Assembly (NCBI GenBank): GCA_005884115.1
Contig: VAXW01000003.1
Coordinates: 310,001-374,000 of the forward strand
DNA: 64,000 nt
Direction: 5' to 3'
From: Actinomycetota bacterium
GTDB lineage: Bacteria > Actinomycetota > Thermoleophilia > Solirubrobacterales > Solirubrobacteraceae
Shown here piece by piece: positions 42,692 to 64,000 of the stretch. Position 1 is the stretch's first letter, and each line of letters starts with the position of its first letter. Position numbers and translations under genes: made by a program. The notes below the pieces were generated by a model. The model did no database searches and was not told where the DNA came from. It saw only the letters and a list, made by a program, of their open reading frames with translations.

Positions 42692-42755
42692 TTGTTCTCC
42701 TCCGTGAGATTGGATAACGAGCGGCACATCGCCGCGCGCGGTTTTCGTTGAGAGA

Positions 42756-48123: not shown

Positions 48124-49044
48124 TCAACCTCCGCCGAGCTGTTCGACGACTCGCGAGAGCGCGGGGTAGAGGAGCACGATGAACAGCGCCGGGAAGATGA
48201 AGAAGATCAGCGGGAACAGCATCTTCACCGGCGCCTTCTGCACCTTCTCGGTCGCGGTCTGGCGGCGGCGCTTGCGCGTCTCGGCCGCCAGGTTGCGCAT
48301 CATCGTGCCGATCGAGACGCCGAGCGACTCGCCCTGCGACACCGCGCGCGCGAACGCGCGCACCGACGGCGTTTCGCAGCGCTCGAGCAGGTTGTCAAGC
48401 GCCTGCTGGGTGGACAGCCCCATGCTCTGCTCGTGAAGCGTCAGGCGCAGCTCCTGTCCCAGCGGGCCGTGGAAGCGGTCGGCGACCAGCTGCAGCGAGC
48501 CCGCGAAGCCGAGGCCGGCCTCGATGGTGGCCGTGAGCAGGTCGATGAGCTCCGGCAGGTCGCGGTCGATCAGATCCATGCGCCGCTGTGCCCTGCGTTC
48601 GACGAGCAGCGCCGGGCCGAACCAGCACAGCCCGGCCGTTAGCAGGATCATCAGCAGCCGAGAGGGCGAGAACGAGCCCGATTTCAGCGTTACCAGCAGC
48701 AGGAACGGCGGGACCGTGAACGTGGCCATCACGCGGTAGCCATGGAACACGTCGGGGTCGACCGTGTAGAGCGCCGCCGCGCGGAGCTTGACCTGGCCCA
48801 CGGGCGCTCGCCATGCGCGGCCCTGCACCCTTTGCCCGACCCTTGCCGCCAGCGTGTTGAGCGCAGCCCTCAGGCCCGAGACACCAGGTGCGGGGTCGGC
48901 GATGACTTCCGGCCCGTTGTAGCCGTAGGACTCGATCTCGCGCATCTGCGCGGACATGCGAATCCGGGACAGCGTGAGCGCGCGCGTGACGAGCGCCGCG
49001 GCGCCCGCCAAGAATATGATTCCGATGACGAATAGAAGGGTCAT
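48124..49044 (-). CDS. tadC: Tad pilus inner-membrane platform protein TadC
   Basis: This 306-residue T2SSF-domain protein has an N-terminal helix, two central helices (VPPFLLLVTL and LLMILLTAGLCWFGPALLV) and the type II secretion F domain DRDLPELIDLLTATIEAGLGFAGSLQLVADRF...GESLGVSIGTMMRNLAAE, ending with a membrane helix (IFFIFPALFIVLLYPAL). TadC pairs with TadB as the platform for the CpaF ATPase. It is the last gene of the Tad operon, 4 bases after tadB. Confidence 0.92.
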   Translation of the reverse strand: MTLLFVIGIIFLAGAAALVTRALTLSRIRMSAQMREIESYGYNGPEVIADPAPGVSGLRAALNTLAARVGQRVQGRAWRAPVGQVKLRAAALYTVDPDVFHGYRVMATFTVPPFLLLVTLKSGSFSPSRLLMILLTAGLCWFGPALLVERRAQRRMDLIDRDLPELIDLLTATIEAGLGFAGSLQLVADRFHGPLGQELRLTLHEQSMGLSTQQALDNLLERCETPSVRAFARAVSQGESLGVSIGTMMRNLAAETRKRRRQTATEKVQKAPVKMLFPLIFFIFPALFIVLLYPALSRVVEQLGGG

Positions 49045-49048
49045 GGAC

Positions 49049-50983
49049 TCACGCTTTGATGTCCGTGATCGAGCGCATCCAAAGCGACCCGCAGGTGATC
49101 ATGAAGCCAGCGAGGACGAGCAGCGCGACGCCCGTGGTCGTTTCGAACAGCGGCTTCTCGTAGTCGGGGTTGATGACCGTTATGACGGTCCCGACGAGGA
49201 ACGGCAGGGCGGTGACCACGTAGCGCGACAGCCGCGCCTGCGCGGTAAGCGCCCGCAGTTCGCGGCGCAGTTCGCCGCGCTCACGCACCGAGTCAGCGAC
49301 CCGCTCGAGCACCTCGGCCATGTTCCCGCCGGTGCGCGAGTGCAGCGTGGCCACGAGCGCGACCTGACCGATGTCCTCGGAGTCCATGCGCTCCGCCATC
49401 GGCGCGAGCGCATCCTGCAGCGGGATTCCCAGCTGCTCGTCGGAGACGACCCGGCTCCACTCGGTGTGCGAGGGCTCCTGTGCCCCGCGTGCCATCGAGG
49501 TGATGCTCGCGACCAGGCCGTGCCCGGCGCGCATCGAGGAGGCGAGCTCCTGGAGGTTGTTCGGAAGCTGCTCGGCGTAGTGGTCGCGCTGGCGATGCAG
49601 CAGGCCCTTGACGGCCGCGTTCAGGATCACGGGCCCGAACGGCAGCAGCAGGATCGAGATGACTGGCGTGCCGAGCGCGAGCCCCGCCAGCGCCGCCACC
49701 GCGACGGTGGCCAGCACGCATATTCCAGCGAGCTTGATCGGGCTGTGCTGGATGCGCGCGATCTCGACGTTCGCCTTGAACGTCTCCCACCAGCCGGCCC
49801 GCTCGAGCACACGCTCCAAGCCGCGCAGCGGCCACCGCGTGGTCGACGCGGTGGAGAGCGCCACCTCGGGGACCACAGGGGTCATCGTGAACTCGCCGAC
49901 GCGTTTGCGCAGCCCCTCGCGACGCAGGCGCGGCAGCAGGAAGACGACGACAGCGAGGCCGACGAGCAGCGCGGCGATCGCCGAGAACAGGACGAGCGCG
50001 AGCGTCGAGACCCAGAACGACTTCGTGTGCGGCGGCGCCAGCGTCAGCGAGCGCGGGGCCGGCGGCGACTCGTAGGAGAGCGTCGCCGGCTGCGCGACGC
50101 CGTCGACCCTGATCGACACGAGCACCCGGTGCCCGAGCGGCGCCACCGAGCGGTAGTGGACGACGTACGCGCTCGTCAGCTGGGACTCGATCTGCGTGAA
50201 CACGCCGGCCAGCTGTGCGGAGTCCGATTCGATGAACGAGCCGCCGCCGACGCGCGCGAGCAGGCTCATGCGCGCCGGGGTGAACGAGCTGTCGCGCAGC
50301 CCGACCGTGTAGATCTGAGCGTGCGCCGCGGCGGCAGCGGCCCCGACCGCAGCCGCCGTGACCGTGTGGCCAGGCTTTGGCTTGGCGCCCTGGCTGGCGC
50401 CGTCGGAGAGCAGGATCACCGCGCCGGCCGCGATCTTGGCACTCGCGATCTGCTGCACGGCCGTGGTGAGGGCGTTGTAGATGTACGCGCCCGAGCCTAC
50501 GTGCGGCGTCCTAGCGAGCGCGCGCGAGATCGCCGCGGAGTCGTTCGTGAGCGGCAGCGCGACGGTCGCGCGGCGATCGAAGGTCACGACCGCGAGCTCC
50601 TGCATCCCAGTCCGCTGCGCGGCCAGCGCGCGCGCCGCCGCCATCGCGTGCTCGAGCGGCGCGCCCCTCATGCTGGGGCTCACGTCGATCGCAAGCACCA
50701 CGCCGAAGTCGTGCGCCCCAGCGCTTGCCAGCGGAGTCACCGCGGCGCCTGTCACGGGACGCGAGTCCTCGGTGACGTGCACCTGCGACGGCGACAGCGA
50801 GCTTCGTTTGGGCAGCGACAGCACGAGCGAGCGCGCCGGGAAGGTCGCCCCGCCGCCTTCCGTCACGCGCAGCGTTGCCGGCGCAGCCCCAACCGATCCG
50901 GCCGCGAGGCCGGCAATCAAGATCGCAACGACCAGCCCGATCAGCAGGTGGCCCCGGCGGGCGGGCGCGAGCAGCTGGCTCAC
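49049..50983 (-). CDS. tadB: von Willebrand factor A domain fused to TadB
   Basis: A GTG at 50983 overlapping the cpaF stop (GTGA), with GAGG upstream, gives 644 residues. A signal-anchor helix (LLIGLVVAILIAGLAAGSVGAA) is followed by an extracytoplasmic VWA domain (about residues 92-270) with an intact MIDAS motif DVSPSMRG and the downstream ILLSDGASQG. A membrane helix (LALVLFSAIAALLVGLAVVVFLLP) then leads to a typical TadB T2SSF domain (LPNNLQELASSMRAGHGLVASITSMA...HSRTGGNMAEVLERVADSVRERGELRRELRALTAQARLS) and terminal helices. Both parts are in one frame with no stop. Canonical TadB is about 300 residues, so the VWA half is an addition, presumably a metal-dependent ligand-binding sensor or adhesin coupled to the pilus motor platform. 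Confidence 0.92.
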   Translation of the reverse strand: MSQLLAPARRGHLLIGLVVAILIAGLAAGSVGAAPATLRVTEGGGATFPARSLVLSLPKRSSLSPSQVHVTEDSRPVTGAAVTPLASAGAHDFGVVLAIDVSPSMRGAPLEHAMAAARALAAQRTGMQELAVVTFDRRATVALPLTNDSAAISRALARTPHVGSGAYIYNALTTAVQQIASAKIAAGAVILLSDGASQGAKPKPGHTVTAAAVGAAAAAAHAQIYTVGLRDSSFTPARMSLLARVGGGSFIESDSAQLAGVFTQIESQLTSAYVVHYRSVAPLGHRVLVSIRVDGVAQPATLSYESPPAPRSLTLAPPHTKSFWVSTLALVLFSAIAALLVGLAVVVFLLPRLRREGLRKRVGEFTMTPVVPEVALSTASTTRWPLRGLERVLERAGWWETFKANVEIARIQHSPIKLAGICVLATVAVAALAGLALGTPVISILLLPFGPVILNAAVKGLLHRQRDHYAEQLPNNLQELASSMRAGHGLVASITSMARGAQEPSHTEWSRVVSDEQLGIPLQDALAPMAERMDSEDIGQVALVATLHSRTGGNMAEVLERVADSVRERGELRRELRALTAQARLSRYVVTALPFLVGTVITVINPDYEKPLFETTTGVALLVLAGFMITCGSLWMRSITDIKA

Positions 50984-52353
50984 GCCACGACCTCGCGGCG
51001 GGGCCCATTCTGTGGGCTTGCGGGCGCCGAAGCGTTCACCCACGAGGGAAGCTTGACGCCGCGCTTCTCGAACTTCTCGAGGAAGCCCGGGCGCAGTCCA
51101 GTGCTCGCGAGCTCGCCGACCACCGTGCGGTTGGACGAGATCGAGTCGACGTGGAAGTGGTAGAGCTCCTGCAGCGTGATCACGTCGGACTCCATGCGCT
51201 GCACCTCGGTGATCGCCATCACCTTGCGCGAGCCGTCGTGCACGCGCTCGAGCTGGATGATGAGATCCAGCGCCGAGGCGACCTGCTGGCGGATCGCTCG
51301 CAGCGGCAGGTCGTAACCGGCCATCATCACCATCGTCTCGACACGGGCGAGCGCGTCGCGGGGCGAGTTGGCGTGGATCGTCGACAGCGAGCCGTCGTGG
51401 CCGGTGTTCATCGCCTGCAGCATGTCCAGGGACTCAGAGCCGCGCACCTCTCCCACGACGATGCGGTCGGGGCGCATGCGCAGCGTGTTGCGCAGCAGGT
51501 CGCGAATCGTGACCTCGCCCTCGCCCTCGATGTTCTTTGGCCGGCACTCCAGCCGCAGCACGTGGCGCTGGGCGAGGCGGAGCTCGGCGGCGTCCTCGAT
51601 CGTGACGATCCTCTCGCTGTCGGGGATCGCTGCGGACATCGCGTTCAGCAGCGTCGTCTTTCCCGCGCCCGTGCCTCCCGAGATCAGCACGTTCAGCCGC
51701 GCCTCGACGCAGCGGTGCAGCAGGTCCGCGGTCTCTGGCGAGAGCGTGCCCAGTCGTACGAGGGCCTCGATGTCCAGACGCTCGGCGCCGAACTTGCGGA
51801 TCGTCAACAGCGCCCCCGACAGGGAGAGGGGAGGGATCACGGCGTTGATGCGGCTGCCGTCGGGCAGGCGCGCGTCGACCATCGGCTGGGCCTCGTCGAT
51901 GCGGCGGCCAACCTCCGCCACCATCTTGTTGACGATGCGCCGCAGCTGCGACTCGTCTGTGAAGCGCACGGTCGTCTTGTGCAGCATGCCCTCGCGCTCG
52001 ATCCATACGTCGTCGGGGGCGTTGACCATGATCTCCGACACCGTGTCGTCGGCGAGCAGGCGCTCGAGCGGCCCGTGCCCCAGGATGTCGTCGGTGAGTT
52101 CCTCGATCAGGCGCTCGCGGTCACCACGCGAGAGGCCGCTCTCCTCTCCCAGGCGACTGCGGATCTCTTCGACCACCTTCCCGCGCACCGCGCCGGCGTC
52201 GCCTTCACCGTCGGCGTCGGTGGTGAACAGTTGGCGACCCAGGTCCTCGATCACAGCGAGGTGGATGCGATTCTTCAGCTCGGCGAACGGATCGCGCCGC
52301 GGCTCGGTTGCCTCACCGACCGTGGATGAGGACAGACGCTCATGCAGCTCCAT
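50980..52353 (-). CDS. cpaF: Tad pilus assembly ATPase CpaF/TadA
   Basis: The ATG at 52353 overlaps the cpaE stop (TGATG); the track GTG lies one codon before it. The 457-residue secretion ATPase has an N-terminal helical domain, EIMVNAPDDVWIEREG, the P-loop ISGGTGAGKTTLLNAM, the Asp-box region RIVTIEDAAELRL, Walker B RPDRIVVGEVRGSESLDMLQAMNTGHDGSLSTIHANSPRDAL with the His box, and VASALDLIIQLER. It powers pilus extension and, in some bacteria, retraction. It sits in the cytoplasm against TadB/TadC. Confidence 0.96.
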   Translation of the reverse strand: MELHERLSSSTVGEATEPRRDPFAELKNRIHLAVIEDLGRQLFTTDADGEGDAGAVRGKVVEEIRSRLGEESGLSRGDRERLIEELTDDILGHGPLERLLADDTVSEIMVNAPDDVWIEREGMLHKTTVRFTDESQLRRIVNKMVAEVGRRIDEAQPMVDARLPDGSRINAVIPPLSLSGALLTIRKFGAERLDIEALVRLGTLSPETADLLHRCVEARLNVLISGGTGAGKTTLLNAMSAAIPDSERIVTIEDAAELRLAQRHVLRLECRPKNIEGEGEVTIRDLLRNTLRMRPDRIVVGEVRGSESLDMLQAMNTGHDGSLSTIHANSPRDALARVETMVMMAGYDLPLRAIRQQVASALDLIIQLERVHDGSRKVMAITEVQRMESDVITLQELYHFHVDSISSNRTVVGELASTGLRPGFLEKFEKRGVKLPSWVNASAPASPQNGPRREVVA

Positions 52354-53564
52354 CACGACCCCCTAACCGCGCGCCGGAACAGCTTCCGGCGGCGCTTCTT
52401 GTTCTTCTCACCGTCCGAGAGCTGGTCGGCGATGTACATGCCCGCCAGCGCGTGGAATGAACGAGCCGCATCCGAGCGGCGATGGCCCAGCGAGATCGGT
52501 TCCCCCTGGTTCACCGAGCGCGTGACGTTGCGGTCCGAGGGCACGAGCAGGTCAGGCGCGCGGCCGAGGATCGACACGACGTCCTCGGGTGAGATGCCGA
52601 CGTTCGAATCCGCCCGGTTGAGCACAAGCCTGACCGGTCCCGCGTAGTCCATCAGCTCGAGCGTCTCGACGCCGAGCTTTGAGTTCTTCAGCGAGAGCGA
52701 GTCGAGCATCGCGACGAGGCACACCTCGGTCGAGGCGTCGACTGCACCGATCACCTCGGGCGTGAAGCTCGGCGGCGTGTCGACGATCACGAAGTCGTGC
52801 ATCGAGCGAAGCAGCGGATACACATCCTTCAGGAACGCCGGCGTCACCACCCCGGCCTCGTCCGGGCGCGCCGGCGCCAGCAGCGCGCGGATGCCCGACG
52901 GGTGCACCGTCAGGAAGTCCGCGAGCTTGTCTGCGTCCAGCGTGCCACCCGCGCGCACGAGGTCGTACACCGTGTGCTCGGGCCTCAGCCCCAGCGTCAG
53001 CCCGACATCCCCGAACTGCAGGTCGAGGTCGACGAGCGCCACGCTGTGGCCCGCGTCGGCCAGCGACACGGCCAGGTTGGAGGAGGTCAGCGTCTTGCCG
53101 CTTCCGCCCTTCAGGCCGAGCACACAGATCATGCGGCCGAGTTTCTCGCCCGTGAGCGGGCGAACGCCGCGCCTGCGCGCCATCGCCTTCTCGACGGTGA
53201 ACGCCACCTGATGAGACATGGCCTGGGCGACGCGGGGGTCGCTGTCGGCCGGCAACGTGACGATGTCGTCCACGCCGGCGTCGATCGCCTCCGAGACATA
53301 GCCATTGGTTTCCGAGGTGCATACGATCACGACCGCGCGCTGCGGATGCAGGCTCCGCGCCGCCGCGACGTAGTCGCCCACTTCGGCTGTGAACGCCTCG
53401 CAGGCGACGATCAGCGCGTCACCGGCATCGCCGTTGTGCTCGGGATCCCGCAGCTCGACGTAGTCCGTCACATGAAGCTGCGGGCTGGATGTCAGGATTC
53501 GCTCAACGACGGCACGATCGACCGCGTCGTCGAGAGCCACGCGCGCGCGCGCCGCACCGATCAT
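52353..53564 (-). CDS. cpaE: Tad pilus localisation ATPase CpaE/TadZ
   Basis: The ATG at 53564 has GGAGG six bases upstream and gives 403 residues. The N-terminal 125 residues look like an atypical receiver domain (VVIVCTSETNGYVSEAIDAGVDDIVTLPAD). The MinD/ParA-type ATPase follows with the deviant Walker A LGLKGGSGKTLTSSNLA, DLDLQFGDVGLTLGL and FVIVDTPPSFTPEV. CpaE/TadZ places the Tad machine at specific cell sites. The C-terminus is Lys/Arg-rich. Confidence 0.93.
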   Translation of the reverse strand: MIGAARARVALDDAVDRAVVERILTSSPQLHVTDYVELRDPEHNGDAGDALIVACEAFTAEVGDYVAAARSLHPQRAVVIVCTSETNGYVSEAIDAGVDDIVTLPADSDPRVAQAMSHQVAFTVEKAMARRRGVRPLTGEKLGRMICVLGLKGGSGKTLTSSNLAVSLADAGHSVALVDLDLQFGDVGLTLGLRPEHTVYDLVRAGGTLDADKLADFLTVHPSGIRALLAPARPDEAGVVTPAFLKDVYPLLRSMHDFVIVDTPPSFTPEVIGAVDASTEVCLVAMLDSLSLKNSKLGVETLELMDYAGPVRLVLNRADSNVGISPEDVVSILGRAPDLLVPSDRNVTRSVNQGEPISLGHRRSDAARSFHALAGMYIADQLSDGEKNKKRRRKLFRRAVRGS

Positions 53565-54364
53565 TTGGAACCTCCCGTTCCGATTGGTTTGCTCCCGAGC
53601 AGCAGCGACTGGGCCGTGACGGCCGAGCTGCTGTTGCTCTGAGTGGCCTGGGCCGGGCGCAGCACGAGCCACACCTTGCCGTTGTCAGACGCATAGGCCA
53701 ACGCGCCTGCCTGCGTGTCGGCGACGTCGAGCGTCACGTTGCTGAACGAGTTGTTGGGGTTCTGCGAGCCGCCAAGGCCGCCGCCGCCAGTGGAGCCCGT
53801 CTGCAGGACCTTGATGTTGGCCATAAGCAGGCGCAGCGCCGGTTCCGAGCGGCCGCCTCTCGGTTCGACGTTCACGCCGGCATATACGTCCACGTGGTCG
53901 CCGGCCTTGACCTGGCCCACCATTCCGTGCGACTGGTCAAGGCTGATCGTGATTGCGCGCTGCGAGGGCGCCAGTTCGGTCGCGAGACCACCCTTGGCGA
54001 CGAAGTCCGCTGCGGTCAGCTGCTGACCGGGGTAGATGTCGGCCGCCGCCACCTTGCCATGCAGCAGCGCGGTGTCCGCGATCGCCCCGGCGGTCACCTG
54101 CTTGACCGCGACCGATGTCGATTTGAACAGCTGTCCGCTGGCGATCGAGTCGCCAGAGGTGCCCTTCTGGATCAGCCCCCCGGCCACCAGGACCGTCTCC
54201 TGGTTTCCGCTGGTGTCCACGTTGTGGCGGTAGCGGTTCATGGCGAGCAGGAGAATCCCGGCTGCCACGAGCGCACACACGCCCGCCACGATGATGGTGC
54301 CGCGCCGCGTAGACAGCAGCTTGCGCCAGTCGTTGCGGGTGTAGTTCTTGCTTGTTAGCTCCAC
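53561..54364 (-). CDS. cpaB: Flp pilus assembly protein CpaB/RcpC
   Basis: The GTG at 54364 follows AAGGAGCAGGAG and gives 267 residues; the longer track ORF reads back into tadG. There is one N-terminal membrane helix (TIIVAGVCALVAAGILLLAM), then a SAF domain (VLVAGGLIQKGTSGDSIASGQLFKST...LHGKVAAADIYPGQQLTAADF), and an RcpC-type C-terminal domain (GDHVDVYAGVNVEP). In diderms it contacts the secretin; here, without RcpA, it probably acts in the wall space. Confidence 0.9.
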   Translation of the reverse strand: MELTSKNYTRNDWRKLLSTRRGTIIVAGVCALVAAGILLLAMNRYRHNVDTSGNQETVLVAGGLIQKGTSGDSIASGQLFKSTSVAVKQVTAGAIADTALLHGKVAAADIYPGQQLTAADFVAKGGLATELAPSQRAITISLDQSHGMVGQVKAGDHVDVYAGVNVEPRGGRSEPALRLLMANIKVLQTGSTGGGGLGGSQNPNNSFSNVTLDVADTQAGALAYASDNGKVWLVLRPAQATQSNSSSAVTAQSLLLGSKPIGTGGSK

Positions 54365-54378
54365 GGTTCTCCTGCTCC

Positions 54379-56469
54379 TTACCTTGTTAGGACGGCCACG
54401 CACTCGCCAAGAGAGTTGAGAGTGCATTTCGACCCGCCATTTTGATTGCTGATCGTGTCTATGTACTTGATGAAGTGCCCGACGATCGTGCCGGGTTCTG
54501 CATTGTCGTCTCCGTTGCCTTGACATGGATTGTTGAAGCCATTGCCGTTGTCCTGCCAGCCGGTGACGTAGAAGGTCGCAAAGGCTGCGATCGGATAGCT
54601 CGAGGAGGAGCCGCTACCGCCGAAGCTCCCGAATGGAGTTACGAACACGGTCACGACGCGGGGATCGGTCGGCGACACGCTTGGGACACCGTTGTTAAAG
54701 ATAAAGGTGCTCCAGAGGTTTTTGTTGGTACATACACTCGGCTTTTCACTGCCGAGGACGCGTATGTTCATGCCCTTCGCAACCTGATTTTCCTTGTTGC
54801 CCGTCGCCGGAGAGACACAGTCCGCGGGCGAGGTTTTGTCGGGACACGTCAGGGTTGGGTTGACTGCCCACATGCCGGCACAGCCGCTGGCAAGACCGTT
54901 GAAGTAGGTGTTTTCTCCTTTTACGGCGGTGCAACTGACGGACTGATTCTGGCTGCCGGTGCCGCTGAAGCGCAGCGTGTAGATCGGGTCGGACACGGAT
55001 TGAGCGGTCCCGAGGCTGCTGGAGATGTAGATCGTGACCACCAGCTTCGGCGCGCAGGATGCGCCTTCGTGGCCGGTCTCGCACAAGCGAAATGAGTCCG
55101 CGTCGCGCGGAGCGCCTTCGATCTGGCTCAGGAATGCCTGGTGAACCGGGCCGGAGGTCGCTTCGCTGGCGGCGTAGCTGCGCTGCACCGCTTCGAATTG
55201 TTTGGTCGCCGAGCTGTCCTTGGCCCGCAGGTTGATCTGGACTGCGCCCGCGGCATGCGCGATCGGGACGTAGCCGGTACCTGCGATTTCTTTCGCTTTG
55301 AAGGGTGAGCAGCTACTCGCCGGTGCTGCGCTGGCCGAGCTCCAGAGCTCGTCGGTGCCCGAGGTCGACTGGAAGGTGAGCGCGTAGCACTTGTTGTTGA
55401 CGATCGCGTCAACATCGGCTCCAGTCGGACGGGTTGTGGTGCCCCAGTTGACTGTTGCGGTTACCGCTAGCGCACAGCTGGAGGAGGGATTCGAGAAGTA
55501 GCCGTCGCTGCAGCCGGCCGGCGCTCCCGCGAGCTGCACCTGGCGAACGAGTGGAGCAGAGGTTGTGCCGGTACCGTTGGCGCTGTATCCCTGAATGTGG
55601 AGCAGCCCGAGCTTGGACGAGCTGGCGTCGTAGCATTCTACGAGGGACTGAGCACAGTCGGTAGCCATGTTCCCGCTGAGGCTTGCGTGACCGGTGATCG
55701 CGATGCGAACGCCGACGTTGGGCTTCTTGACGGGGAACGAGAGCGGCGCGCCGCCGTTGTCCCAAACGCTTTCCCCATTAGAGGTCCCGTCGCTCTGCAG
55801 TGCCACGCTGCATGGCGAGGTGCCGCTCGCACCGCAGCTCATCAGTTGTGTGGCGGGGCTGACCGACTCGTCGACGAAGTACGCCTCCGCCGCCTTGGGT
55901 GCGAGATCGTTGACCGCGACCGGAAGCGAGCCCGTCGCTTCAGTCGACTGGAGGATTTCGATGCGCGCGTGAGCGTTGATGTGGGAAACGTTCAGCACGT
56001 GCTCCCAGATCCAAGGCAGTTCCGTCTCGGTCAGCTTCACGTCGACCATCGACGCTTCGCACGGTTTTTTTTCGACGGCGGTTTCGTCCACCGGCGAGGA
56101 CTGTCCGTAGTAGCGCTTGCTGTTGAGCAGCTCGTGAAGCTTGCTCTGCGGCGTGCCCCCGACCTGTTCGTTGTAGAGCGGCGTTTTTGATGTTGCCGGT
56201 TCGGTCGGGGTTGTAACGGAGCTCACACCGCCGTATTGGCCCGCCCGCGACGCGATATTGGCGTCGACGCAGGGTTGAAACTCCCTCGCGGCGGCGAAGA
56301 CGGCGGCGTCGGCTTGGACCTGCAGATGCCGTTTGTGCAGGAACCAGTTGCCTGCGTCCATCGTGAACGCGGCCATGAGGATCACGACCGGGGCGAACAG
56401 CGCGAAGGTAACGAGCACTGCACCGCGCTCATCAGATGCGAGCGCCGCGATACGGGCCGGCGCGCTCAT
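54379..56469 (-). CDS. tadG: TadG-like pseudopilin-related protein
   Basis: The ATG at 56469 overlaps the tadE stop and gives 696 residues. The N-terminus has the TadG pattern DERGAVLVTFALFAPVVILMAAFTMDAGNWFLHKRHLQVQADAAVFAAARE, with a single membrane helix. The remaining 640 residues are an extracellular, Ser/Thr/Gly-rich, Cys-containing region of likely beta structure, without the VWA domain that many TadG proteins carry; that domain is instead fused to TadB here. It probably forms a minor or tip component of the pilus. Confidence 0.85.
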   Translation of the reverse strand: MSAPARIAALASDERGAVLVTFALFAPVVILMAAFTMDAGNWFLHKRHLQVQADAAVFAAAREFQPCVDANIASRAGQYGGVSSVTTPTEPATSKTPLYNEQVGGTPQSKLHELLNSKRYYGQSSPVDETAVEKKPCEASMVDVKLTETELPWIWEHVLNVSHINAHARIEILQSTEATGSLPVAVNDLAPKAAEAYFVDESVSPATQLMSCGASGTSPCSVALQSDGTSNGESVWDNGGAPLSFPVKKPNVGVRIAITGHASLSGNMATDCAQSLVECYDASSSKLGLLHIQGYSANGTGTTSAPLVRQVQLAGAPAGCSDGYFSNPSSSCALAVTATVNWGTTTRPTGADVDAIVNNKCYALTFQSTSGTDELWSSASAAPASSCSPFKAKEIAGTGYVPIAHAAGAVQINLRAKDSSATKQFEAVQRSYAASEATSGPVHQAFLSQIEGAPRDADSFRLCETGHEGASCAPKLVVTIYISSSLGTAQSVSDPIYTLRFSGTGSQNQSVSCTAVKGENTYFNGLASGCAGMWAVNPTLTCPDKTSPADCVSPATGNKENQVAKGMNIRVLGSEKPSVCTNKNLWSTFIFNNGVPSVSPTDPRVVTVFVTPFGSFGGSGSSSSYPIAAFATFYVTGWQDNGNGFNNPCQGNGDDNAEPGTIVGHFIKYIDTISNQNGGSKCTLNSLGECVAVLTR

Positions 56470-56993
56470 TTCGAGCACCCCGCTTTGTAGTTCGTGGGCG
56501 CGGCCTCGAGCCGCATGTATGCCCTGCCCGTGAGTTCAGTCGTCGCGGCTTTGAGATTCAAGACCGGGAGCCATTTGACGATGCTCGTGGCTTCTACCTT
56601 GACGGGCTTCCCGGCTTCAGCACCTTCGGGGAAGCTCACACATATCTTCCCGCTGCTCGTGAGGAAGTTGCTGTCCCCCTGTTGCTTCGCCCACTGCTGC
56701 AGTTCTTCGCTCCCGCCCGGGTTTTGATTGACGATCGCGTAGCGCGCGACCTCATTGGCGAGATGCGTCTCGTCGTTCTCGGAGTTGAGCGCGAGCCCGA
56801 ACTCGAAGATTCCGAAGAGGACCACGAGCAGGATCGGCAGGACAAGTGCGAACTCCGCGAGCGCCTGGCCCCGTTCGTCGGTAGCGCGAGCACGCAGCGT
56901 GCATGCAAGGCGTCGCAACGCCTCGCGTCGAGGCGCCCGCTGCTCTTGCAGCTGGCGGCCGGCTATGCGGTTGTCGGATTGCGTGGTCCTCAT
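56466..56993 (-). CDS. tadE: TadE-like minor pseudopilin
   Basis: Using the ATG at 56993 the protein has 175 residues; no good SD is visible and an upstream start is possible. After a basic leader comes ATDERGQALAEFALVLPILLVVLFGIFEFGLALNSENDETHLANEVARYAI, the TadE domain with the prepilin-peptidase-type G-Q-A-L-A-E-F site. A short extracellular part with one Cys near the end follows. The stop overlaps tadG. Confidence 0.88.
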   Translation of the reverse strand: MRTTQSDNRIAGRQLQEQRAPRREALRRLACTLRARATDERGQALAEFALVLPILLVVLFGIFEFGLALNSENDETHLANEVARYAIVNQNPGGSEELQQWAKQQGDSNFLTSSGKICVSFPEGAEAGKPVKVEATSIVKWLPVLNLKAATTELTGRAYMRLEAAPTNYKAGCSK

Positions 56994-57080
56994 TACCGTT
57001 TGATCGATTGGGTTGGGTTGCTGTTCTTGTTTCTTGGTTTTGCAGTGCGTTTGCTTCAGATCGGCACCACCCCGCTGACC

Positions 57081-57119
57081 GCCGCCGCGCGCCACTCCGG
57101 GTGGTGCGGCGCGGGCGGC
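57081..57119 (-). terminator. G+C-rich hairpin between flp and tadE, possible attenuator
   Basis: GCCGCC at 57081 pairs with GGCGGC ending at 57119, with inner pairing of GCCAC and GTGG around a TCCGG loop. It lies 23 bases after the flp stop. It could partly terminate transcription so the major pilin is made in excess over the assembly proteins. Confidence 0.45.
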
Positions 57120-57141: not shown

Positions 57142-57327
57142 TTAGACTTTGCCGGCGAGTTCTTCCAGCGAGCCCGCGATGTTGCCGCCGAGGAGTTCCA
57201 GGGCGGCGATCGAGACGATCGAGACCAGGGCCAGGATGAGTGAGTACTCGACCAGGGCCTGACCCTCCTCGCGAGCGGTCCGGGCGATGATCAGCCCGAA
57301 CACGCGACTCTTGAGAGCCTTCAACAT
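57142..57327 (-). CDS. flp: Flp type IVb major pilin
   Basis: The ATG at 57327 is preceded by GAGGGGGTGA, a near-perfect match to the anti-SD, eight bases upstream; the track GTG at 57339 lies inside that SD and is rejected. The 61-residue prepilin has a basic leader, the processing site EEG/QALVEYSLILALVSIVSIAAL with Glu+5-Tyr, and a short C-terminal tail (LLGGNIAGSLEELAGKV). It is processed by the prepilin peptidase encoded at 61576 and polymerised by the Tad machine. Confidence 0.95.
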   Translation of the reverse strand: MLKALKSRVFGLIIARTAREEGQALVEYSLILALVSIVSIAALELLGGNIAGSLEELAGKV

Positions 57328-57428
57328 ATTTGTCTTCACCCCCTCTCAGTGTGTCGCCGTATGGGAATTGCCTGCCGACCCGAGCCCACCCGAACGGGCC
57401 GGCGGCGGGCGCTTGCAAGGCAAGACGG

Positions 57429-57653: not shown

Positions 57654-60527
57654 CTAGCGTCGCCTGAAGGCGCCGGCCGCGTAGCTTCCGAGGCCTCCGC
57701 GTTTGTCCACGGCGGCGACGCGCCAGTACAGCGCGCGGCGGAAGGTCTTCTTGCGCAGGTCGATGCTGGGGGCCCAACTGGTGCCATCCACAGTGCGCGT
57801 TTCTGTGCGTTTGCCGAAGCCGTTGGAGGTAGAGACTTCCACGCGATAGTGAATTGCGTCTTTCTCGGGCCTCCAGGTGATGAGTAGGCGCGAGGCCTTG
57901 TGAACGCCGCGCGCGCCCGCGGGTGGCGGAAGCGTCAGAACCGGCAGTTGCATCGTGGCGGAGTACGGACCCGCGACCTTGCCACCGATTGCGGCCGTCG
58001 GAAACTCAGCGCGCACCGTGAAGTGGCCGAACCCGGTCCCGTAGTATTCCACGGCGCTCGCCGCCGGCGACTCGAACGTGTAGTCCTTCGATTTCCCATC
58101 AGCCTGGTTGATGTGGAGGTCGTAGGAGATCGCACCCTGGAGCGCATTCCACGTCAGTGGTGTCGTCGCGATGGCGGCCGAAGGGCCGAACGGATCCGGC
58201 TGCGGCGTGGGGAGCAGGCGCACGAACGCCTGGGTGGGCGACCAGTTCAGGCCCTGGCCGATCCAGTCGTTGGCGCGCACGCGCCAGTAGAGGGGTGTGT
58301 TCGTCGGGTAGGTGGATGAGCTCGTGTACGCCGTGTCGTCGGTTGTGACGTCATCGATCAGGGTCCCGAAGCTCGGATCCAGCGAGACCTCGAGGCGGTA
58401 GTTGCGGGCGTTGTCCGCCGGCGCCGGCGCCCATCGGAACGTGGGCTGCGTGGAGATCTGTTCACCGTTGGCCGGCGCGAGCGGCGTCGGTGGGCTCGAG
58501 GACTTGTTGAACACCTGGGGGTTGTCGTTGTCGGCTTCGCAGGGATTCGACGGCGTCTGGTAACAGGGGTTGCTGAAGATGCCGGCACCATCGTCTTCCT
58601 TTGCTGGAATCACAGCCCAGTAGTAGCTCGTCGTCTCGTCGGCGAGCGGGGCTTCGTTGTAGACCCGCGGAGCGTAGGCCGGTCCAAGGGTGAAGCCGAC
58701 ATCGGCGACTTCTGTGAAGCGTGCGTCGCGCGCGATCACGACCCAGTAGCTCTTGGCTTCGCCGACACGCTTCCATGTCAGCAGCGGGGTCAACGTCAAG
58801 CTCGAACCAGAGGCGGGCAGCAGATAGGCGCTTGCGGGCGTCACGAGTCCTTCAGGTTTCCCAGGGGGCGGACTCAGGTACGTGAACGCCGCGTGGTTGT
58901 CGCCATTGATCTGGCTCCAGGCGCTGACCACCTGACCTTTCTGGGCATCGTCGTCGCTGCGTGCAAGGACCCGTACGCAATATCTGGGAGTCGCCGTCAA
59001 TTCGACGTTTTTTTCCGTTTGGGTCGCCGCGTTAGTGAGTACGACCGTCGTGCCTTCTACGCGGTCGACTTCGGTCCCGGCTGGCATCCCGGGCCCGGTG
59101 ACAATGTCTCCCACGGCCGGTCTTCCTTCAGGAAAATGCGGGCTGGTGAGAACGTTCGAGCCTGCAGATGTGGTGGCCGTGAATTTGATCTGGGCAGGGA
59201 GATTTTCGAGGGCCTTCTGTGGATGCGGCCAGGCGCTCGGCCCGACACGGAGGACGCTGTGGCCGATCGGCGTCCAGGCCGGCGTGGATGTGAACGCTCG
59301 AAAGGCGTTGGTCGGCTCGTTTTGCAGCCCCTGGCCGGCAAGCGTCCAGTCGCAGCCCGCGCTCGAGTACTGACCGACCTGAACCTCATAGCGCGACGCT
59401 CCGGGAACCGGGTCCCATGTCGCGATCGGCGTGTCGACGGATGGAACGCCGCTGAGGGCATTGCCGGAGGTGTCGCTGACCCTGAGGTTGCGAATGGTCG
59501 GAGTGGAGGGATCGAACGCCTTTTCGAATGGTTCGCCGGGCGGCTGCTGGCTCGGCGGCCCCGGCTGTGAGCGTCCGTAGTTCCAGACTCCTGCGTTGCC
59601 GCGGGCGTCAATCGCCCTGACTCGCCAGTAGTAGCGGTTGTTGGCGAGCACCTTCAGCGGCGCCAGCGATGTACCCGTTGTGGCGCCGGTGCAACACCAC
59701 TTCGAGCCCGCGGCGAAGTGTTCGTCGGCGTTGACCTCGATTTCGTAGCGCGCCGCCCCGGCGACCGGCGTCCAGGAGAACAGCGGATCATCGAACGCGC
59801 CCGCTTCGGGGTTGAGGTCCGTCACGGACACCGTCGACATCTGCGTTGGCCACTGCCAGGTGAAGAACCCCGCGTCCGAGCGCGCTCCCGGGTGACCCTG
59901 CGCGTCGAGCGGCGTGATTGCCCAGTAGTACGGCGCTCCACCGCGCGGATCGAGCGAGGTGGGCAGCGCGTAGTTGACCGCCTGCGTTTCGACCGGGTGC
60001 GTCTTCGTCCCCAGGACGATGTTCGAAAGGCCGGGGTCGGTTGCGACCGTCACGATGTACTTGGCCGCGTAGGGGACGCTGCTCCAGCGCAGCACGAGCG
60101 GTTCGCTTGGCCACCTGATGGTCACGCCGTTGCCGCCTGTCAGCGCCGGCTTCGCCGTCCACCTCTTGACGATCCTTCGCACACGGGACCACGGGCCCGT
60201 GCGGTCCTTCGCCGTGAGCGCGCGCACGCGCCAGTAGTAGGTCCCGTCCGCGACGTCCTTTTCGAGCGCCGCTGCGGTGTTGTACGTGTGCGCCGTGCCG
60301 CGGCCGGGCCCGCTGCCGAGGATGATCGAGTGAAAGCGGGCGTTCGTGGACACCTGGTATTCGTACGCGGCCGCTCCTCGCACCGCCTTCCACTGGATGG
60401 CGGGCAGCTGCTGCACGCGCGCCCCGTTGCCCGGGCTCACAGGCACCGGTGCGCGCAGGCCGCGGGCATCCGCGGCGCTCGTCGTTGCGAGCAGTGTGAG
60501 ACACGCGAGAACGATGACCCTGCGCAT
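57654..60527 (-). CDS. large secreted repeat protein with fibronectin III-like modules
   Basis: The ATG at 60527 starts a signal peptide (RVIVLACLTLLATTSAADA) and gives 957 residues. At least six modules end in a recurring pattern: GTYYWRVRALTAKDRTGPWS, PYYWAITPLDAQG, RYYWRVRAIDARGNAGVWN, SYYWAVIPAKEDDGAG, PLYWRVRANDWIGQGLNWS and ALYWRVAAVDKRGGLG. Each module begins with a proline-rich strand such as PVPVSPGNGARVQQLPAIQWKAV. This is typical of FN3-like domains. Around residues 475-545 an insert (GSNVLTSPHFPEGRPAVGDIVTGPGMPAGTEV) resembles small beta modules of phage and surface proteins. No anchor is visible. Its position and promoter suggest a Tad-associated adhesin or matrix protein. Confidence 0.85.
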   Translation of the reverse strand: MRRVIVLACLTLLATTSAADARGLRAPVPVSPGNGARVQQLPAIQWKAVRGAAAYEYQVSTNARFHSIILGSGPGRGTAHTYNTAAALEKDVADGTYYWRVRALTAKDRTGPWSRVRRIVKRWTAKPALTGGNGVTIRWPSEPLVLRWSSVPYAAKYIVTVATDPGLSNIVLGTKTHPVETQAVNYALPTSLDPRGGAPYYWAITPLDAQGHPGARSDAGFFTWQWPTQMSTVSVTDLNPEAGAFDDPLFSWTPVAGAARYEIEVNADEHFAAGSKWCCTGATTGTSLAPLKVLANNRYYWRVRAIDARGNAGVWNYGRSQPGPPSQQPPGEPFEKAFDPSTPTIRNLRVSDTSGNALSGVPSVDTPIATWDPVPGASRYEVQVGQYSSAGCDWTLAGQGLQNEPTNAFRAFTSTPAWTPIGHSVLRVGPSAWPHPQKALENLPAQIKFTATTSAGSNVLTSPHFPEGRPAVGDIVTGPGMPAGTEVDRVEGTTVVLTNAATQTEKNVELTATPRYCVRVLARSDDDAQKGQVVSAWSQINGDNHAAFTYLSPPPGKPEGLVTPASAYLLPASGSSLTLTPLLTWKRVGEAKSYWVVIARDARFTEVADVGFTLGPAYAPRVYNEAPLADETTSYYWAVIPAKEDDGAGIFSNPCYQTPSNPCEADNDNPQVFNKSSSPPTPLAPANGEQISTQPTFRWAPAPADNARNYRLEVSLDPSFGTLIDDVTTDDTAYTSSSTYPTNTPLYWRVRANDWIGQGLNWSPTQAFVRLLPTPQPDPFGPSAAIATTPLTWNALQGAISYDLHINQADGKSKDYTFESPAASAVEYYGTGFGHFTVRAEFPTAAIGGKVAGPYSATMQLPVLTLPPPAGARGVHKASRLLITWRPEKDAIHYRVEVSTSNGFGKRTETRTVDGTSWAPSIDLRKKTFRRALYWRVAAVDKRGGLGSYAAGAFRRR

Positions 60528-60538
60528 AGGTGTCGCAG

Positions 60539-60598
60539 AGCGTAGGCGTGCCCGGCCGGTCGGCAAACGCCACGAAGCTCTAACTCGACCTAGACAAA
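60539..60598 (-). promoter_or_regulatory. promoter of the repeat protein gene with shared upstream element
   Basis: TTTGTCTAGGTCG (complement of 60586-60598) lies exactly 31 bp before the -35 TTTGCC (complement of 60562-60567); a 17-bp spacer leads to the -10 TACGCT (complement of 60539-60544). The ATG is only 11 bases after the -10, so the mRNA is nearly leaderless. Confidence 0.65.
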
Positions 60599-60697: not shown

Positions 60698-61579
60698 ATG
60701 GCCAAGACCAAGTTGATCGTCAACCTCACGCGGGACCGCGCGGTTTGCGTCGGGGAGCTCGCCGACGGGCCGCTGCTGCGCATGCGCGGACTGCTCGGCC
60801 GTGAGGGCCTGCCCGCGGGGGAGGGGATGCTGATAACGCCCGCGCCCGGGATTCACACGGCCTTCATGCGCTTCCCGATCGACGCGCTGTTCCTCGACCG
60901 AAGCATGCGCGTGATCGATATCGTCGAGCGGCTGCGCCCGTGGCGGATGGCTTCACGGCGGCATGCACACTCCGTGCTCGAGCTCTCGGCCGGTGAATGT
61001 GCGCGCCAGGGCGTAGAGGTGGGAGACCGCCTTGCGCTGCGTGAGAGGGCCGCGGGAAGCAACGCCGGCGGCAACGGCGCAAGCGGCAACGGCGCGAGTG
61101 GCAATGGCGCGAGCAGCCCGAGAACGTGGTGGCCCTTGCGCAAGCCGGAGCGCGCCGGCGCCGATATCCCGGTTGCGAAGCCCGCGCATGGCCACGAGCC
61201 AAGCGTTCTCACACGGCTTTCGCCGCTGCGTGTGCTGGTGAGCTCTGCTGACCGCCACTTCCGCACCACCACATCGCTGCTGCTGGCACGCCGTAACTGC
61301 TCGGTCACGACGACGGCCAACTCAGGGAGGCTGAGCGAACTGATCGCACGCGAGGGCACCGAGGTCGTCGTGGTTGACCTGGGCGACCCAAGCGCGTCAG
61401 AGGCGATGGGGACCGTGCGGGCGTTCGCGCGCCCCGTAGGCCTCGTGCTGGTCGACGATGAGGCCGGCGTCGGCCCGGGTGGTCAGCCGGTGCTTGCGAG
61501 GTGGGGCCCGTTCGGAGACCTCGTGGTCGCCGTCGAGGACGCGGAGCGGGCGCGCGAGCACGAAGCGGGGCGAGCGTGA
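60698..61579 (+). CDS. DUF192 domain fused to a degenerate receiver-like domain
   Basis: This protein has 293 residues. Residues 1-115 are DUF192: RMRGLLGREGLPAGEGMLITPAPGIHTAFMRFPIDALFLDRSMRVIDIVERLRPWR. A repeated linker (GNGASGNGASGNGASS, encoded by 15-bp tandem units) follows. Residues 177-285 read as a receiver fold: LRVLVSSADRHFRTTTSLLLARRNCSVTTTANSG...TEVVVVDLGD, with an Asp at the phospho-acceptor position (D227), but the N-terminal acidic pair is reduced to one Asp and the late KPF becomes GPF. It is thus probably not a normal phospho-receiver. Its stop overlaps the prepilin peptidase start (GTGA), tying it to the pilus genes. DUF192 function is unknown. Confidence 0.8.
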   Translation: MAKTKLIVNLTRDRAVCVGELADGPLLRMRGLLGREGLPAGEGMLITPAPGIHTAFMRFPIDALFLDRSMRVIDIVERLRPWRMASRRHAHSVLELSAGECARQGVEVGDRLALRERAAGSNAGGNGASGNGASGNGASSPRTWWPLRKPERAGADIPVAKPAHGHEPSVLTRLSPLRVLVSSADRHFRTTTSLLLARRNCSVTTTANSGRLSELIAREGTEVVVVDLGDPSASEAMGTVRAFARPVGLVLVDDEAGVGPGGQPVLARWGPFGDLVVAVEDAERAREHEAGRA

Positions 61580-62139
61580 GCAGCGAGAGCCTCAGCGCTC
61601 GCGGAGCTGCCTCGTTGGGGGGTGCGCTCCCGCGCAGGCCCCTCCTGGTAGGGGCGATGGCCGGCGTCGTCGTGCTCGCCTTTGCGAGCATGGCCTTCGA
61701 CCGCGCCGTCGTGTCTGCGCTCGCGGCAGCGGTTCTCGTGGTGCTCGCGGCGATAGACGTCGAGCGCGGCATCATTCCCAACCGGATCGTCCTACCGGCG
61801 GCTGCGGTCGTGCTGGTCGCAAACATCGCGATAGCCCCGAGCCGGGTCACGGAGTGGGTGCTCGCGGCCCTGATCGCGGGTGTCGTCCTCTCACTGCCGG
61901 CGCTCTTCGGCCGCAACTGGATGGGCATGGGGGACGCCAAGCTCGCACTTCTGATCGGCGCTGCGCTCGGTTGGGGGGTCGTCGGCGCGGTGCTGATCGG
62001 GCTTCTGTGCACCTTCCCGGCGGCGCTGTTCATCGTCGGGCGAGGCGGCCTCGCGGCGCGCAAGGCGACGATCCCGTTCGGACCGTTCCTAGTCGCGGGC
62101 GCGCTGATTGTCATGTTCGGCCCGCACATCTTCACTTGA
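61576..62139 (+). CDS. tadV: A24 prepilin peptidase (CpaA/TadV-like)
   Basis: GTG 61576 gives 187 residues with about five or six membrane segments. The two catalytic aspartates appear in AAIDVERGIIPN and GMGDAKLAL, the family signature. The N-terminal methyltransferase domain of larger PilD proteins is absent, as in Tad systems. It should cleave Flp, TadE and TadG-type precursors encoded just to the left. It also could process type IV pilins of the pilN/pilO system, if that has no peptidase of its own. Confidence 0.92.
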   Translation: MSSESLSARGAASLGGALPRRPLLVGAMAGVVVLAFASMAFDRAVVSALAAAVLVVLAAIDVERGIIPNRIVLPAAAVVLVANIAIAPSRVTEWVLAALIAGVVLSLPALFGRNWMGMGDAKLALLIGAALGWGVVGAVLIGLLCTFPAALFIVGRGGLAARKATIPFGPFLVAGALIVMFGPHIFT

Positions 62140-62143
62140 TGTC

Positions 62144-64000
62144 ATGGCCGTCCTGCGCTTGCTAAAAGAGTCATCCTCCCCGCGCGCGGATCTGCTGTCG
62201 ATGCGTTTTCGCGTCGAGCAGTTCGAGTACGTGCAGGCTGACCTGTTGCTGCGCCTGTCGATTCGACTGTCGATCGAGCTTCCGGCGCACACTTGGCCCG
62301 TCCTGCTCATAGAACGCGAGGCCGTCGAGCTCATGTACGCGCCCATGCTCGGGTGCACGGGCCGCACGCCGATCAGGGACGCAGCCGGGCTGAGCGACAC
62401 GGGTGACTGGCGCTGGCGGGGCGCGTTCGCGCTGCCGCCGGAGCTCGCGTGCGATGACTCGGCGCTGTTCTCCCTGCGCCTCAACGATGAGCTCACGTTG
62501 GGGCTGCCGATGCCGGACATCGACACGCCCGGCCCGGGAACGCCCGCCGGCGGGCCGGGGCGAGGGTCGCGCTCAATCCAGCTCGTGCAGCGCGGCGCGC
62601 TGCTCTTCATCCTCACCTGCCAGCTGTGCTTCGCTCCAGGGCTCGCGCCCGTGGGCGCGCTGGCGGAAGGGACGACGACCGGGACCGAAGCGGCGCTCGA
62701 AGCCACCGAACCCGCACCTCCAGTCTCGACCGAAACCACGCCGCCGTCCCCCGAAGAATCCACGACGCCGGCGCCCCCACCGAGCGAACCTCCGGCGGAA
62801 ACGCCCTCAGACCCTCCGGCGACCGGCGAACCTGGTCCGCAATCCCCTGAACCGCCATCAAGTACACAGGGCGAATCGGCCGAAGCCAGCGCACCCGGGC
62901 AGGGCGCCGACGGGACAAGCGCGCCGGAGAATGCGTCCGAGGGTGCAGGGCAAGCCCAGGTCCATACGAGCACGACTCCCTTCACATCTGCTCGTCCCGC
63001 GACGCTCTCGCACGCAAGGCTCGTGTCCGTCGCTTCTCACCGGCAGGCGTCGTCGCGGATCAGCGCGCGGGACGCGAGAGCGGTTGCTCAACTGCGTGAT
63101 GCACAGGCCGCGGTGCCCTCACCGGCAGCATCGCCGGCACCCCTCGCGGACCCCACCGCAGTCGAAATCCCACCGGCCCTCCTCGGCCTCACCTCGAGCC
63201 TGCTTACGGGCGTCGAAGAAGCACCGCCGCCGTTCCTGATCCCGATCTACAAGGCAGCTGGGCACCGCTACCACGTCCCTTGGCAGGTGCTGGGGGCGAT
63301 CAACGCGGTCGAGACGGCCTACGGCCACAACCTCTCGGTGTCCTCCGCTGGAGCCGAGGGCTGGATGCAGTTCATGCCCGCCACCTGGAGTCGCTGGGGC
63401 GTCGACGCCGACCACGACGGGACCAAGAACCCCTACTCGCCTCAGGACGCGATCTTCGCGGCCGCGCGCTACCTGCACGCGAGCGGGGCCTCGCGCGACC
63501 TGGCGGGAGCGATCTTCGCCTACAACCACGCGGCCTGGTACGTAAGCGAGGTGCTGTTGCGGGCTCGCATGCTCGACAGCGCGGCCTCGTTCGCGAACAT
63601 CGAGAACGGATACGCATTGCCGCTTGATGCGCGCTACATGCGCGAGCTCGGGCGAACCGACGACGGCGTCGACATCGAGACGCCGCCCGACGGGGCGCTC
63701 GTCTACTCGATGACGCCGGGTGTAGTCAGCGCGGTGGCGATCGACCCGGGGGGCTTCGGACCGAACTACCCGGTCATCGAAGCCGGCGAAGGGTCGCTGA
63801 AGGGCCAGCACATCTACTACGGCCACGTCGCCGCGGCGCTCGTTCAGGCGGGCGAGAAGGTCGCGGCGGGCCAGCCGATCGCGATCGTCGGGCACACGGG
63901 CGATGCGGCGTCGCTGGGGCACGGGCACATCGAGATCGGCTTCTCCGACGCGGGCGGCGACCCGCTGAGCCATCACGGAGCCGAGGCGTGGACGCCGGCT
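62144..64000 (+). CDS. lytic transglycosylase with degenerate M23 domain, 3' truncated
   Basis: This gene is absent from the ORF track because it runs off the window. ATG 62144 opens a frame that stays open to base 64000 (at least 619 codons). Residues 1-135 form an unrecognised N-terminal domain (MAVLRLLKESSSPRADLLSMRFRVEQ). A hydrophobic segment near residue 150 (GALLFILTCQLCFAPGLAPV) may be an internal export signal. Residues about 175-290 are Pro/Glu/Thr-rich. Around 365-480 lies an SLT/GH23 domain with AINAVETAYGHN (catalytic Glu), EGWMQFMPATWSRWG and IFAAARYLHASG...AIFAYNHAAWYV. Around 505-602 an M23-like domain keeps YYGHV and HGHIEIGF but lacks the usual HxxxD zinc ligands. It probably opens peptidoglycan for the pilus. 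Confidence 0.85.
   Translation, partial: MAVLRLLKESSSPRADLLSMRFRVEQFEYVQADLLLRLSIRLSIELPAHTWPVLLIEREAVELMYAPMLGCTGRTPIRDAAGLSDTGDWRWRGAFALPPELACDDSALFSLRLNDELTLGLPMPDIDTPGPGTPAGGPGRGSRSIQLVQRGALLFILTCQLCFAPGLAPVGALAEGTTTGTEAALEATEPAPPVSTETTPPSPEESTTPAPPPSEPPAETPSDPPATGEPGPQSPEPPSSTQGESAEASAPGQGADGTSAPENASEGAGQAQVHTSTTPFTSARPATLSHARLVSVASHRQASSRISARDARAVAQLRDAQAAVPSPAASPAPLADPTAVEIPPALLGLTSSLLTGVEEAPPPFLIPIYKAAGHRYHVPWQVLGAINAVETAYGHNLSVSSAGAEGWMQFMPATWSRWGVDADHDGTKNPYSPQDAIFAAARYLHASGASRDLAGAIFAYNHAAWYVSEVLLRARMLDSAASFANIENGYALPLDARYMRELGRTDDGVDIETPPDGALVYSMTPGVVSAVAIDPGGFGPNYPVIEAGEGSLKGQHIYYGHVAAALVQAGEKVAAGQPIAIVGHTGDAASLGHGHIEIGFSDAGGDPLSHHGAEAWTPA

Follow-up and report, generated by a model that had tools for sequence, protein, structure and literature searches.

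DUF192 is, to our knowledge, a widespread protein family without a known function. In December 2025, a DUF192 gene was reported towards the 3′ end of the Bulleidia extructa tad operon, Erysipelotrichales and Helcococcus ovis showed comparable cases, and no function was proposed (PMC12786226); within the DUF192 literature, subscription papers and preprints aside, this was the one tie to Tad that we found. An atypical receiver has been described in the Tad machine itself, namely that of TadZ/CpaE, which the available part of PMC13170226 places around the motor, while the same part of that source names no DUF192-like component in its in situ model of the Caulobacter machine. Pseudo-receivers, defined as receivers lacking any one of five conserved residues, include FrzS, which takes part in controlling type IV pili through protein contact (PMC12632262).

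Herein we analysed a protein encoded in a 64,000-nucleotide stretch of Thermoleophilia DNA (hereafter the window), which resembles each of these systems in part. By Pfam, phmmer and Foldseek it shares the fold and family of PF02643/COG1430 (structures 3pjy and 3m7a), but it differs in being cytoplasmic by prediction, linked to Tad genes, marked by its own motif, placed on a separate branch and fused to a receiver domain. The Bulleidia extructa protein is of similar size, lies beside tad genes and has the same structural matches, but it carries no receiver domain and such cases were reported for a few Bacillota only. The multi-phylum breadth, the split between cytoplasmic and exported types and the pseudo-receiver fusion are not described in PMC12786226 and appear to be new. 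As in TadZ/CpaE, the window protein has a receiver fold; however, TadZ/CpaE proteins are built as a receiver followed by a ParA/MinD ATPase, whereas the window protein has no ATPase domain, a separate TadZ is encoded nearby, and the pseudo-receiver profile, although it aligns with the TadZ receiver profile (hhalign, 89.6% over 126 columns), is no closer to TadZ than to ordinary receivers. Like the pseudo-receivers of FrzS and GlnR, the window domain is without the canonical phosphotransfer residues, but its partner domain is DUF192, helix alpha4 is absent from its model and no DNA-binding region was recognised; the GlnR N-terminal model was weakly matched by 9 of 21 pseudo-receiver members.

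Results

The open reading frame at 60698–61579 (plus strand) encodes a 293-aa protein composed of a DUF192 domain, a linker and a receiver-fold C-terminus, in which no signal peptide or membrane segment was seen. The DUF192 domain, already proposed by the sequence-only reading, covers residues 20–113 (60755–61036) and matches PF02643 with 71.4 bits (E 7e-20) against a curated cut-off of 27, over model columns 4–95 of 96. Its structural model reached a pLDDT of 82.8, with the first 40 residues at lower confidence, and Foldseek matched it to 3pjy (TM 0.81, E 1e-8) and 3m7a (TM 0.76, E 3e-8), so that both score and fold place the protein in PF02643. The domain contains IHTAFMRFPID, a motif typical of the Tad-linked type described below. 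The variable linker (61037–61219) includes the Gly/Asn/Ala/Ser repeat seen earlier, as three 15-nt units encoding GNGAS at 61070–61114; since this repeat is not conserved among relatives, it was rejected as a functional element. That the fusion is an assembly artefact was also rejected, because the fused form recurs in many genomes. Searching with the single sequence, Pfam recognised only DUF192 in the window protein, and no DNA-binding domain was found.

The C-terminal region (residues ~175–293, 61220–61576) gave weak or no matches as a single sequence; as a profile of 21 relatives it matched PDB receivers (NtrC1, E 3.7e-7). AlphaFold2 run on the 21-member alignment produced a five-stranded model with a pLDDT of 94.8, in which helix alpha4 is absent between strands four and five, and Foldseek matched this model to receivers with a probability of 1.00 and TM scores of 0.65–0.77. 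Fold and profile similarity thus assign the domain to the receiver superfamily, with alpha4 absent in the model, and the earlier suggestion of a receiver-like C-terminus withstood the fold check. The active-site register came from alignments to the receivers NtrC1 and PrrA and to those encoded in related loci. In this register the acidic pair of receivers corresponds to S183 and A184, the phospho-acceptor to D227, the Thr to D253 and the late Lys to R268, part of a [K/R]W motif (R268–W269) with a near-invariant Trp, which means that of the residues expected in a functional receiver (DD, D, T and K) the acceptor Asp alone is kept. Neither metal-binding acid nor the Thr survives in any of the 21 family members; at the acceptor position 17 have Asp and four have Glu, and the late position holds Lys in 15 and Arg in five. 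Given S183/A184, D253 and R268, the definition in PMC12632262 makes the C-terminal domain a pseudo-receiver, which is predicted to keep the receiver fold while having lost residues for normal phosphotransfer. The sequence-only reading had also seen the late Lys as replaced by a change from KPF to GPF, which proved to be in the wrong register: G270-P271-F272 does not align with the receiver Lys, and GPF as a mutated KPF was rejected.

The locus around the DUF192 gene is a Tad locus. The minus strand encodes a Flp-type pilin of 65 aa (57142–57339) with an EEGQALVEY processing motif (Flp_Fap E 5e-5, under the curated cut-off), TadE (56466–57095), a TadG-like protein (54379–56478, PF13400 Tad), CpaB (53561–54526, TIGR03177 over cut-off), a TadZ/CpaE-type ATPase (52353–53672), the TadA motor ATPase (50980–52356, T2SSE E 7e-69), a VWA domain fused to the TadB platform protein (49049–51043) and the TadC platform protein (48124–49044, T2SSF). 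An N-terminal VWA domain on TadB was also seen in two further Thermoleophilia loci (L093:6430–8448 and L121:1459–3666) and is absent from the Chloroflexota TadB of L011. On the plus strand, the DUF192 gene is followed by a prepilin peptidase gene (Peptidase_A24, 61576–62139) and by a gene for an SLT transglycosylase/peptidase M23 protein (62180–64000), which extends past the window end; the order from DUF192 to SLT/M23 is also found in L002–L005, L113 and L121. A 970-aa protein with Ig_Rha78A_N repeats (57654–60566, minus strand) is encoded in the stretch that separates the Flp pilin gene from the divergent DUF192 gene; it may be a pilus partner that is secreted or exposed at the surface.

The linkage of DUF192 to Tad genes was scored in 61 Thermoleophilia loci (60 plus the window) and in 30 loci from a similarity search (one genome per species), using HMMs seeded from the Tad proteins of the window and calling a locus linked if at least two Tad genes lay within 10 kb. 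Both sets, which share some loci, were picked by similarity to the window protein and not by Tad content. Linkage was found in 42/61 and 23/30 loci, respectively, and the unlinked remainder was mostly on contigs too short to tell. The similarity-search set spans Chloroflexota, Acidobacteriota, Planctomycetota, Bacillota (Salibacterium) and Gammaproteobacteria, and DUF192 is thus encoded in Tad loci across lineages, as a component of the Tad system would be. It lies directly after tadC in several lineages, within ~110 nt in loci of family f7 and within ~490 nt in Chloroflexota. None of 17 exported-type DUF192 controls from the same class was linked, 8 of them being on short contigs. In a set of weaker DUF192 matches, 11/37 were linked and 18/37 were not. 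Two loci from genomes of the same family (L128 and L131) carry a DUF192 gene of the subfamily that neighbours an SLT/M23 gene, and no Tad gene lies closer than 10 kb.

The presence of Tad-type DUF192 also tracks that of CpaB. Among 199 Thermoleophilia genomes, 74 had both, 20 DUF192 only, 32 CpaB only and 73 neither (Fisher p 9e-12, without ancestry correction), and the corresponding counts for exported-type DUF192 were 2, 16, 104 and 77. In one Acidobacteriota class (that of L020, 60 genomes, CpaB presence being a match over cut-off), low-scoring DUF192 occurred in 12/14 CpaB-positive genomes versus 2/46 others, and lay within 15 kb of CpaB at 10/15 places versus 0/16 for high-scoring DUF192. 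In the gammaproteobacterial class of L030 (56 genomes), low-scoring DUF192 occurred in 7/11 CpaB-positive genomes versus 2/45 others, being within 7 kb of CpaB at 7/9 places versus 0/10 for high-scoring. Exported (high-scoring) DUF192 was therefore near CpaB at 0/26 places in these two classes, where the DUF192 type was set solely by Pfam score and the counts were read from tables by hand; in all three samples the counts are uncorrected for shared ancestry. Linkage and co-occurrence together bear out the expectation that DUF192 of this type would accompany Tad loci. Since 4 of the 11 CpaB-positive gammaproteobacterial genomes are without Tad-type DUF192, and some Tad loci hence lack it, it is not a core Tad part.

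The two types differ beyond their gene neighbourhoods. A hydrophobic N-terminus was found in none of 73 Tad-linked DUF192 proteins versus 95% of exported controls, and the characteristic motif is IHTAFMRFPID in the former and of the WMKNT-IPL type in the latter. The exported type also splits off at 100/100 in a tree, which is based on few columns and leaves many forks unresolved. Judged from these sequence features, the Tad-linked proteins form a predicted cytoplasmic subfamily that is distinct from the exported DUF192 proteins, a split that ties the Tad-linked type to a concrete, testable process.

Discussion

We propose that a cytoplasmic DUF192 subfamily is a widely conserved but overlooked accessory of Tad machines in at least six phyla, to which Thermoleophilia have added a phosphorylation-independent receiver that offers a new point of docking or control, a reading to which we assign a probability of about 0.5. 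For the window protein the corresponding role would be that of a soluble accessory protein serving the Tad pilus machine in the cytoplasm, which we hold with the same even odds. As far as gene content and neighbourhood can tell, the DUF192 half has good support as a Tad accessory, while its molecular action is our inference: the DUF192 domain would bind a cytoplasmic motor or platform part (TadA, TadB/TadC or TadZ), and the pseudo-receiver would mediate docking or dimerisation independently of phosphorylation, tuning how the machine is assembled or positioned or how active it is. This proposal draws on the position of DUF192 close after tadC in several lineages and on the precedents of CpaE/TadZ (PMC13170226) and FrzS (PMC12632262). 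Running counter to it, some subfamily members occur away from Tad genes, as in the 18 unlinked weak matches. A recurrent extra cytoplasmic part would add to the known components of many Tad systems, and the pseudo-receiver suggests that Tad control may work without phosphorylation.

Only two Thermoleophilia families, f1 and f7, yielded the pseudo-receiver itself, and there it is fused to DUF192 in 13/20 analysed cases and encoded by a separate neighbouring gene in 7/20; the best 20-taxon tree needs two changes between the fused and split states, of which well-supported branches by themselves force one. In L010/L100 (Gaiella sp. FR_16), the pseudo-receiver part runs over two frames, reflecting a frameshift or sequencing error. 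Most Tad-linked DUF192 proteins are without a pseudo-receiver. The sequence-only reading had derived a new Tad component from the combination of domains; Tad linkage upholds this for the DUF192 half, but the stress on the fusion is too narrow, as it is confined to two families and alternates there with the two-gene form. The regulatory or scaffold role suggested at the same time is plausible.

Families f2, f4, f5, f10 and f11 include 23 loci in which the gene after DUF192 encodes a full receiver protein, ≤250 nt away in 19 of them, and the two such proteins that were checked combine Response_reg with Trans_reg_C (OmpR-type); the pseudo-receiver of f1 and f7 takes the same place. A tentative alternative is therefore that the window protein regulates tad expression, in that an ancestral DUF192-adjacent OmpR regulator lost its DNA-binding region and phosphorylation site, became joined to DUF192 and now acts via another regulator. 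We consider this improbable, though less so than the other alternatives, given that the window protein has no DNA-binding domain, that Chloroflexota and many Thermoleophilia Tad-linked DUF192 loci have no such neighbour, and that profile comparison does not mark OmpR proteins as the closest relatives of the pseudo-receiver (the scores favour neither TadZ nor the DUF192-adjacent regulators as its source). In families that gave no pseudo-receiver, canonical receivers encoded on the same strand after Tad-type DUF192 were observed in L134, L138, L139, L142–L144, L146, L149, L182 and L187, and further in L190–L192, L196, L197, L202, L203, L205, L207 and L209–L211, and these proteins are candidate regulators of Tad.

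In the window, the stop codon of the fusion gene and the GTG start of the peptidase gene share the GTGA at 61576–61579, an overlap of the two genes that the sequence-only reading had noted, and short overlaps also occur in L003, L110, L119 and L125. Such overlaps could mean co-translation and a role for the protein as a partner of the prepilin peptidase that aids pilin processing, and a peptidase lies ≤1.5 kb away in 12/61 loci. However, most Tad-linked loci have no peptidase next to DUF192, which no less often lies beside tadC or diverges from the tad operon, so we regard this role as unlikely; the earlier idea of coupling to the peptidase holds in the window but is limited to some lineages. 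The source genome has a second prepilin peptidase (G000:C2:308008–308319), ~1.7 kb left of the window.

The members found away from Tad genes would also fit a DUF192 that serves some other purpose and travels with Tad genes by genomic accident, but linkage recurs in several phyla with differing gene orders and presence tracks CpaB in three separate samples, which leaves this explanation with little probability. Slightly less probable still is phosphorylation of the receiver at Asp227, weakly or by an unusual donor, for although the Asp (17/21) and a Lys or Arg (20/21) are kept and receivers lacking DD, T or K may still be phosphorylated (PMC12632262), no member retains the metal-binding acids or the Thr and four have Glu at the acceptor position.

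Returning to the locus of the proposed Tad accessory, the window also encodes, at 40361–42727 on the minus strand, a collagen-like protein of 788 aa with extended G-X-Y repeats.
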